A DNA stretch of 21,682 nucleotides from a virus. The position numbers and the translations under genes were made by a program. The stretch is taken from IMG/VR virus record IMGVR_UViG_3300042473_000161, positions 1 through 21,682 of that record; one strand, given 5' to 3'. The notes under the pieces are model-generated. The model did no database searches. It was given only the letters and a program-made list of their open reading frames with translations, and was not told the DNA's origin. Of this stretch, positions 16,294-18,186 are shown in pieces; the stretch's first letter is position 1, and each line of letters opens with the position of its first letter.

Positions 16294-17295
16294 TTAAAAT
16301 GGCATTTCGGGGTTTCCGTCTTTATTTATAACTGGCTCTAATTCTTTAAAAGCTCCTTGCTTCATTCTTTCACTAAACGAAAGTAATTCTTTTCCATTTA
16401 CAATATCTGGCTTTAAAGTTGGAAAACTATTAGACGTTTTAGGTCTAAACGCTTGTAAAGGGTCAACATCATTTATTTTAAAGCCTAATCCAAAATTATA
16501 ATCGCAGTAAATTGGATCATTCAATCCAGTATGTTTACCACCCGTGTCAGTATCTTTTACTTTTTCAACGTTTACCCAAGTTACAAATTTCATTGTTTCG
16601 TGTTTTACTAAGCGATGAATAACAAACATATCGTCACACCTATTTATAAAAGCTTTACCGCCTTCAATATGGTCTTTTAAGGGTGCTTTTAAGTGTCCTT
16701 GATATAAACCGTCAGTGTATAAATTACCACTGCGACCGCTTTCACTATTCGGGTGCGTGTTTATGTAAATTGTTAATCCGTATTTATTGCAGTAATCACG
16801 GCATTGATTCAAAAATAAATAATTACTTTGAAAATCCATTTGCCTATCTAACCCCGTGAACGGGTCAATCAATGCTACATTACATTCAGATTCTTTAAAT
16901 AGGTTTAAAAGGTCTTTAGGTTTGTACAATTCAGCATTATTTACAAAGTAAAATTGCTGTTCTAAAATAGTCATGCCGCTTTTTATTTGGTCGTATGTCA
17001 AATCTTTAAACTTTATGCCGTAGTACATTTGTATTAAATCTCGAAGTATGTTTCCCTTCTTGTTTTCGCCACTCCAGATACAAAACTTTAAATTGTGCCT
17101 AAGTGCTAAATTTAGAAAGTACCAATTTATCCAATAGGTTTTACCTACGTTATCGTGTCCTAAAATAATATTTAGTTGATTAGGTTTAAATCGTAGGTAT
17201 TCATCGAGGTAACATCCTATTCCTAATCCGTCTTTTATTTTACCATCTTTGTAATCTAACAAATATTGTAAGCTATCTCCAGAAGTTGTTATCAT
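16294..17295 (-). CDS. RecA/DnaB-like replicative helicase ATPase
   Basis: The 333-aa protein is a RecA-fold ATPase of the DnaB-helicase/RepA type. Walker A is GHDNVGKT at residues 46-53. A Glu-containing strand FCIWSGENKK lies at 71-80, as in the 'sgE' of DnaB. Walker B is NVALIDPF, with Asp 144. INTHPNS near 178-184 is the sensor-type segment. It lacks the DnaB N-terminal domain, so it is a short phage form. The C-terminal 70 residues are low-complexity and charged. It begins with an ATGA overlap on the replication-initiation-type gene, the normal pairing of initiator/loader and helicase, and is followed by the repeat cluster. Confidence 0.8.
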   Translation of the reverse strand: MITTSGDSLQYLLDYKDGKIKDGLGIGCYLDEYLRFKPNQLNIILGHDNVGKTYWINWYFLNLALRHNLKFCIWSGENKKGNILRDLIQMYYGIKFKDLTYDQIKSGMTILEQQFYFVNNAELYKPKDLLNLFKESECNVALIDPFTGLDRQMDFQSNYLFLNQCRDYCNKYGLTIYINTHPNSESGRSGNLYTDGLYQGHLKAPLKDHIEGGKAFINRCDDMFVIHRLVKHETMKFVTWVNVEKVKDTDTGGKHTGLNDPIYCDYNFGLGFKINDVDPLQAFRPKTSNSFPTLKPDIVNGKELLSFSERMKQGAFKELEPVINKDGNPEMPF

Positions 17296-17909
17296 TTTGT
17301 AGGTTTTAAAAATCCAAGTTTAATTGCTTTCAGTTCTTCAGGTGAAATGCTTTCTTGTTGGTATTGATTAGGGTTTCTATTGTACCAAGTTCTTAATCGT
17401 TGTTCTATACCGAATGTTTTTTCCTTTTCAAATCTAAGCTTTTTATCTTTATCACCGTGTTCAGTCCAGTAATCGTAAAATTCACGTAGCATTTTTTTAG
17501 GGTATTCATCAACAAACAAAGAAAGCGAAGCGTAAAACTTGCTTTTACGTTCTTCTATATTATCTATTTCTTTATCTTTTACATTTACATTATCATTAAC
17601 AGCTATTTTTGCCATGTCGTTTATGCGATTGCTATCTTCTGTTATATTTTGCCACCTTTTGTTAGCGCCTGCTTTACCTGCCTTGCTTCTGTTTTCTTTT
17701 GTTTCTTCGTATTTTATTAAGTCCCTTTTCAGTTGTTGTTGAATAGGTGTAAAAGCTAACTTAATAATTAAATCGTCTGTTTCTGGGTTCTCATCGTTTA
17801 CATAACTTAATATAAACTTTATTAATTCACCAGCTTTGTCGTTTGGTAGTTGGTCAAAAATTGCTTTTTGATCCGCATACAAAATAAATCCTTTTTTGTC
17901 TTTTGCCAT
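17292..17909 (-). CDS. Replication-initiation/helicase-loader type protein (205 aa)
   Basis: The N-terminal 95 residues (KGFILYADQKAIFDQLPNDK, then helices, ending RSKAGKAGANKRW at about 74-86) match a domain common at the start of phage and prophage replication proteins (the DUF6291-like type). After a variable linker, the C-terminal part (SLFVDEYPKKMLREFYDYWT ... RFEKEKTFGIEQRLRTWYNR) is like the DnaD/loader-type end that contacts helicase. It lies immediately before the helicase gene. The ATG at 17909 is only 18 nt after the T tract of the RNA element at 17928-18019. A TAAATTTG box (17914-17921) is too close to the ATG to be a normal promoter for it. Role in origin binding or helicase loading is inferred from context. 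Confidence 0.65.
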   Translation of the reverse strand: MAKDKKGFILYADQKAIFDQLPNDKAGELIKFILSYVNDENPETDDLIIKLAFTPIQQQLKRDLIKYEETKENRSKAGKAGANKRWQNITEDSNRINDMAKIAVNDNVNVKDKEIDNIEERKSKFYASLSLFVDEYPKKMLREFYDYWTEHGDKDKKLRFEKEKTFGIEQRLRTWYNRNPNQYQQESISPEELKAIKLGFLKPTK

Positions 17910-17927
17910 TTGTCAAATTTAAGTCAT

Positions 17928-18019
17928 AAAAAAAGCCTCTTAAAATCCTGCGCATCTGACTTCGCATTCATTTAAAAGGCTAATAACTTCTTTAGGTTCG
18001 TATAATGTCAGATGGAACC
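17928..18019 (-). ncRNA. Candidate structured RNA with complementary hairpin loops
   Basis: In a packed operon this 127-bp gap is non-coding and highly structured. Hairpin 1 has stem GGTTC/GAACC (18015-18019 with 17995-17999) and a 15-nt loop containing CATCTGAC (18007-18014). Hairpin 2 has an 11-bp stem AGCCTTTTAAA/TTTAAGAGGCT (17971-17981 with 17934-17944), an internal loop, a second stem TGCG/CGCA and a 10-nt apical loop containing GTCAGATG (17953-17960). The two loop sequences are perfect 8-nt complements, so the hairpins can kiss. Seven T follow the outer stem, making it a terminator. A TATATTTG box at 18025-18032 would start the RNA at about 18019, exactly at hairpin 1. It may be an independent small RNA or a cis-acting attenuator for the replication genes. 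Confidence 0.7.
17934..17981 (-). terminator. Terminator/attenuator before replication genes
   Basis: An 11-bp stem with one G-U pair and a 26-nt structured loop is followed by seven T (17928-17934 on the plus strand read as A). It stands between the small early genes and the replication genes. Since no good promoter lies after it, the replication genes must depend on read-through from 19521, which makes this a likely control point. Confidence 0.7.
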
Positions 18020-18024
18020 GTGTG

Positions 18025-18032
18025 CAAATATA
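18025..18032 (-). promoter_or_regulatory. -7 promoter box for the structured RNA
   Basis: TATATTTG on the minus strand fits the Bacteroidota -7 consensus and lies 4 bp after the stop of the 49-aa gene. No TTG is found at the usual distance and the early-promoter spacer is absent, so it would be weak or need another factor. The predicted start coincides with the first base of hairpin 1. Confidence 0.5.
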
Positions 18033-18036
18033 CGAA

Positions 18037-18186
18037 TTATTTTATAATTACTGTTGGTATTGCTGAATTAATTTCAAATATTTCGTCTATTTCTAATAAT
18101 CCATTTGAATAAAACGCTCTGTAATACGTTAAATCCGTTTCTTTGTCGTGGATTCTTTCAACTTCAGTTAAATAATATACTTTCAT
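18037..18186 (-). CDS. Small hypothetical protein (49 aa)
   Basis: A 49-aa frame (MKVYYLTEVERIHDKETDLT to AIPTVIIK) between the 41-aa gene and the RNA element. It starts 2 bp after the upstream stop. The alternating hydrophobic and charged residues suggest a small alpha/beta protein; no membrane segment or known motif. Tight spacing and normal codon use support a real gene. Function unknown. Confidence 0.55.
   Translation of the reverse strand: MKVYYLTEVERIHDKETDLTYYRAFYSNGLLEIDEIFEINSAIPTVIIK

Follow-up and report, generated by a model that had tools for sequence, protein, structure and literature searches.

This study concerns a window of DNA, meaning the whole stretch of 21,682 nucleotides from IMG/VR virus record IMGVR_UViG_3300042473_000161, which carries ERF, NinG and RadC genes. 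On its minus strand there is a gap between a small open reading frame ending at 18037 and a DUF6291 gene starting at 17909. A first-pass annotation placed a compact RNA with two interacting hairpin loops in this gap, and left undecided whether it is a small RNA or a switch for the gene that follows. Very little is known about the control of genes in Bacteroidota phages. The questions addressed are what kind of element the RNA is, and on what it acts.

All elements of the RNA lie on the minus strand. The −7 box TATATTTG (18025–18032) has the form TAnnTTTG of a Bacteroidota-type promoter, and is followed by five bases and then by a leader RNA of about 92 nt (17928–18019), defined by sequence and RNA folding. 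The leader opens with hairpin P1 (17995–18019), which reads GGTTC-CATCTGACATTATAC-GAACC and pairs GGUUC (18019–18015) with GAACC (17999–17995) around a 15-nt loop; the loop contains the first kissing strand, K1, CAUCUGAC (DNA CATCTGAC, 18007–18014). A 13-nt linker, UAAAGAAGUUAUU (17982–17994; TAAAGAAGTTATT in the window), connects P1 to the terminator hairpin (17934–17981), whose sequence is AGCCTTTTAAA-TGAA-TGCG-AA-GTCAGATG-CGCA-GGAT-TTTAAGAGGCT and which runs into a U-tract of seven T (17928–17934), the first T closing the stem. This hairpin is predicted by folding to have a lower stem, P2 (17981–17971/17944–17934), an internal loop and an upper stem, P3 (17966–17963/17952–17949). Its apical loop contains the second kissing strand, K2, GUCAGAUG (DNA GTCAGATG, 17953–17960), a perfect complement of K1.

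Just two hairpins, P1 and the interrupted terminator hairpin, come out of RNA folding (−21.6 kcal/mol, z −2.3 relative to shuffles), and both loop 8-mers are left unpaired in the prediction. Thus the −7 box, the P1 hairpin, the terminator and the 8-nt complement between single-stranded loops are all found as first described, and the promoter and terminator positions agree on a compact RNA of about 92 nt. Two conserved parts had gone unmentioned. The terminator stem is broken by a conserved 4×4 internal loop rich in purines, UGAA/GGAU, and few parts of the leader are as well conserved as the linker, in which UUAUU is near-invariant in alignments A2 and A3.

The DUF6291 gene (17292–17909, minus strand) encodes a protein of 205 aa that matches Pfam PF19808 (E 8e-23) and a PHROG annotated as ‘primosomal protein’ (E 1.6e-7); the gene after it matches DnaB-like/primase-helicase families. 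The product is probably a replication-initiation or primosomal protein, in agreement with the initial reading, and its ATG at 17909 is 18 nt past the U-tract end at 17928.

To follow the RNA beyond the window, relatives of the DUF6291 protein were gathered from viral contigs and the regions upstream compared. The same architecture is present in most of these contigs, with loop sequences that vary yet remain complementary. More contigs were added by a scan for the promoter box and linker that is blind to the loops. A covariance model, R1, was then built from P1, P2 and P3 only, with the loop pairing left out, and it yields 97 good members; the window RNA scores 100.5 bits, its sequence being part of the training alignment. 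Among 75 unique R1 members, which have 28 different loop sequences, 74 have a perfect loop–loop complement of at least 7 nt; in the remaining one a G-U pair extends a complement of 6 nt. With partners swapped, a complement of at least 7 nt is found in 12.6%. Even two members with only 37 and 33 bits (L144 and L126) keep the loop-to-loop match CATCCAC/GTGGATG.

In two model-derived alignments, six of the eight kissing-helix pairs have changed on both sides, and the helix is paired in 90–91% of cells, a figure that takes in a few weak chance hits and out-of-register rows. All five pairs of P1 show changes on both sides in the model-derived alignments, and pairs of P2 and P3 covary as well. The covariation score for the whole structure is 0.66–0.72 and falls to at most 0.15 when partners are slid by one column; these are plain counts, with no tree correction for shared ancestry. 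A first covariation count, which gave 100% pairing, was dropped because its sequences had been picked for loop complement. The covariation proposed as a check on the original description is therefore present. The loop–loop covariation indicates that the fold itself is under selection, and at the level of sequence the ~92-nt leader with kissing loops is confirmed as a family, beyond chance in one sequence.

The variety of the loops suggests a comparison with plasmid-like copy-number or immunity systems, in which RNAs of the same phage would pair in trans and the loops would give specificity. Loops do differ widely between phages, and also between two copies within one phage. A clear recent case of compensated loop change appears in L095 (5511–5600) and L187 (10281–10370), which are identical outside the loops and differ by just two compensated pair changes in the kissing helix. 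However, comparison of close pairs shows the loops diverging at no greater rate than stems P1 and P3, and specially fast loop evolution was accordingly rejected; apart from isolated cases, nothing points to diversifying specificity. An antisense RNA of the pT181/ColE1 type is not indicated either: a host-type promoter box on the opposite strand occurs in only 1/74, against 12% in the control. In addition, intramolecular pairing should win over pairing in trans. A copy-number or immunity function is therefore considered very improbable.

A second subtype, type B, has GAGUAG...CGAAA in the terminator hairpin in place of the UGAA/GGAU of type A, and shorter P1 loops. The internal-loop motif (GAGUA/GAAA) is similar to loop-E or sarcin–ricin motifs. 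Scanning for GAGTAG and CGAAA together with the promoter box gives 75 unique type B sequences with a T-run, and 73 of these have a loop–loop complement of 6–8 nt. A looser relative is found at positions 1308–1408 of L085, an Aequorivita MAG contig; its loops are complementary over 9 nt (GTTGACGCT/AGCGTCAAC), and no open reading frame of at least 40 aa was found close downstream.

Position provides the main evidence on function. TAnnTTTG is found 4–7 nt ahead of P1 in 42 of 43 members of the protein-based collection, at exactly 5 nt in 33 of them, compared with a rate of 0.7% at random positions. In type A (n=73) 92% of the sequences, and in type B (n=73) 89%, have a co-directional ATG no more than 25 nt from the end of the T-run. 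Of 139 other intergenic terminator-like hairpins in the same contigs, a control counted without removal of duplicates, 18% are as close. The gap between U-tract and ATG is too small for a promoter and none is conserved there among relatives, hence transcripts of the gene must begin no later than the RNA itself and run through its terminator. The arrangement is that of an attenuator, with an intrinsic terminator between promoter and start codon and no later promoter, leaving aside a non-conserved box in the window itself. There, TAAATTTG (17914–17921, minus strand) lies 6 nt past the U-tract and 4 nt ahead of the DUF6291 ATG. It could be a promoter box that gives a leaderless mRNA in the window phage; relatives do not conserve it.

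The closeness of the hairpin end to the ATG (0–25 nt) might also be explained by a 5′-UTR structure that stabilizes the mRNA or tunes translation, the U-tract being an A/U-rich landing site for ribosomes. Bacteroidota ribosomes are reported not to use Shine–Dalgarno pairing (PMC9976891), which would suit such a site. Against this, the distance from U-tract to ATG is variable, and in nearly every member a strong stem runs directly into 4–8 T, which is the signature of an intrinsic terminator. In 74 unique relatives the U-tract has a median of 6 T and the hairpin a median of −16 kcal/mol; these lengths and energies support real termination. A role confined to the 5′-UTR is thus improbable, though less so than the copy-number reading.

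The main rival is a free-standing small RNA that the phage would make early in infection and that would act in trans on a host mRNA, a host protein or another phage RNA, with the gene behind it fed by upstream read-through or leak. The RNA has its own promoter and terminator, which also suits such a molecule; it has a hairpin at each end, the fold is compact and stable, and a phage may hold several copies. Compact genomes can also place terminators near the next gene for other reasons. What a small RNA leaves unexplained is the rigid spacing to the start codon, far tighter than for other terminators, and the variety of the genes downstream. Moreover, the loop 8-mers do not behave as target-recognition seeds within their own phage contigs, where they recur 0 times and 2.8 recurrences are expected. 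This reading is regarded as unlikely.

The genes downstream of the leader fall into 65 clusters. When 62 proteins (61 cluster representatives and the window protein) were scanned, 22 matched DUF6291, 19 a primosomal PHROG, 8–10 DnaD-like or O-like initiator families and 8 NUMOD4/HNH; two matched DNA methylases, and the primase, helicase, thymidylate synthase and Mom families were each matched by a single member. The first genes behind the leader are therefore mutually unrelated, and include DnaD-like helicase loaders, O-like initiators, nucleases, primases and a methylase. The initial association with a replication gene holds, since replication genes do follow the leader, but it was too narrow. 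A regulatory head that is portable would be expected to show just this, the same fold before unrelated genes. Since promoter, fold and terminator together make up a single block attached at the start of the next gene, a portable cis-acting leader appears to fit the position and the gene variety better than a free small RNA does. Of the two possibilities originally left open, position strongly favours the cis-acting leader, i.e. the switch.

The best explanation, to which we give a probability of roughly 0.6, is that the leaders are a family of cis-acting transcription attenuators heading replication and other DNA-function operons in Bacteroidota phages. Sequence shows the fold with its loop pairing, the promoter box, a hairpin of terminator shape and the placement in front of unrelated genes. 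The course of events would be as follows. Host RNA polymerase would start at the TATATTTG promoter and P1 would form at once; about 60 nt later the terminator hairpin would be made, and the two hairpin loops would pair, joining both hairpins into a single elongated fold, about 31 base-pair steps long, alongside which the linker strand would run. Transcription would mostly end at the U-tract, ahead of the start codon by 0–25 nt. Expression of the gene would then need read-through by the polymerase, which may be regulated. The folded state would then decide between stop and read-through, and a common factor, either a small molecule or a protein of phage or host, would probably bind the fold at the kissing helix, the internal loop or the linker.

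The elongated fold can be looked at geometrically. The ~31 steps comprise the kissing helix, P1, P3, the internal loop and P2, and on a crude geometry of 6.2 Å per nucleotide and 2.8 Å per pair, the linker (12–19 nt in type A, mostly 16–21 in type B) is just long enough, if extended, to close such a rod. Thus the kissed and terminated states can coexist, and consequently the fold alone does not tell whether kissing favours the stop or read-through. Linker length and stack length do not increase together among members, so that geometry does not separate an active switch from a rigid fold.

Inspection by eye recognised no mutually exclusive antiterminator pairing. A classical antiterminator made of the linker and a terminator arm was considered and rejected, as the pairing, also judged by eye, is not kept across relatives. 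A factor that recognises the fold would therefore be the likeliest switch. A leader peptide in the conserved AAUGAA was likewise rejected by eye: the frame is not kept, and AAUGAA is missing in type B.

A more specific proposal can be made tentatively, at clearly lower confidence than attenuation as such. The leader might be a new class, a portable switch with one tertiary fold in which a kissing helix is built onto the terminator hairpin. A single dedicated factor (a metabolite, or a protein of phage or host) would read this fold during infection and so turn on the operons for replication, DNA modification and homing nucleases jointly.

How the leader relates to known RNAs bears on its novelty. 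None of the 4227 families of Rfam 15 matches the window or three isolate genomes above the gathering threshold, in line with the first-pass annotation, which had not recognised a known family. Below threshold only weak, chance-like matches appear, the best having E 0.82 for the window RNA and E 0.31 for seven relatives; the RNA of Olleya phage Harreka_1 reaches 23.3 bits at best (cut-off 56.1, E 0.012). No description was found in the literature covered, which lies outside subscription journals and preprints. Kissing loops are part of the lysine and purine riboswitch scaffolds, and these resemble the phage leader in having an intramolecular loop–loop helix and conserved purine-rich internal loops. 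As in riboswitches, a conserved RNA fold is joined to a gene-control element, as seen from the covariation and the terminator. The phage leader differs in having no multi-helix junction and no Rfam match; it is roughly half as large as the lysine riboswitch, and its terminator is itself a kissing hairpin. The phi29 pRNA is also a phage RNA with two complementary, covarying loops, but these join different molecules in the packaging ring, whereas the present leader ends in a terminator and precedes genes of replication type, not those for packaging. The put RNA of HK022 is a two-hairpin phage leader at the start of an early operon; it acts on later terminators and, unlike the present leader, carries none itself. 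Replication attenuators of pT181-type plasmids and their synthetic derivatives likewise combine a leader, loop–loop contacts and a terminator before a replication gene, with contact to an antisense RNA that switches exclusive folds (PMC3753616, PMC4878617). In the phage leader both loops are in one RNA, no antisense box was found and no exclusive fold recognised. The fold thus seems to be new; attenuation, should that prove to be its function, is a familiar kind of control. In an attenuator of this form the terminator hairpin itself would join the kissing complex, which would couple an RNA tertiary contact to termination. To our knowledge, such a coupling is not known from other leaders.

The architecture is also present in cultured phages. 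It precedes DUF6291-type genes in Cellulophaga phages phi13:2 and phi19:3, Flavobacterium phages 11b and elemoC, Muminviruses filifjonk and tooticki, and Olleya phage Harreka_1; in Riemerella phage CRP19 and Vibrio phage 1.240.O, the region just ahead of the DUF6291-like gene has no recognisable copy. Widespread, strongly covarying and unmatched in Rfam, the RNA stands at the head of replication operons in phages that can be grown, and its function is directly testable. With strict filters, R1 finds a single copy in 397 Flavobacteriaceae genomes, located 10 nt ahead of an open reading frame on a short contig, and model R2 finds none in them; matches of a loose detector that have no promoter box are mostly chance-like.

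The RNA can occur twice in one phage. Nine contigs have both subtypes ahead of different genes (L001, L003, L005, L011, L014, L090, L131, L163 and L192), and tooticki has an additional copy before a NUMOD4 endonuclease gene. In L003 the RNA is immediately before an HNH gene that follows ninG, and in L005 it is before an HNH gene that follows a 119-aa gene; at both places the window has neither HNH gene nor RNA. This joint presence and absence suggests that the RNA and nuclease gene travel together, and they look like one mobile cassette.

Copies directly before NUMOD4-HNH homing-endonuclease genes are found at L090:3523-3608, L003:2709-2791, L005:5824-5910, L131:5857-5940, L163:5268-5353 and L215:11600-11683. 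Other copies, either a second one of type B or one of type A, precede large open reading frames (L001:1123-1210, L011:1163-1250, L014:1182-1269, L192:3830-3917 and L043:405-495); the gene behind the L043 copy encodes a ParB-like/N6 DNA methylase fusion.
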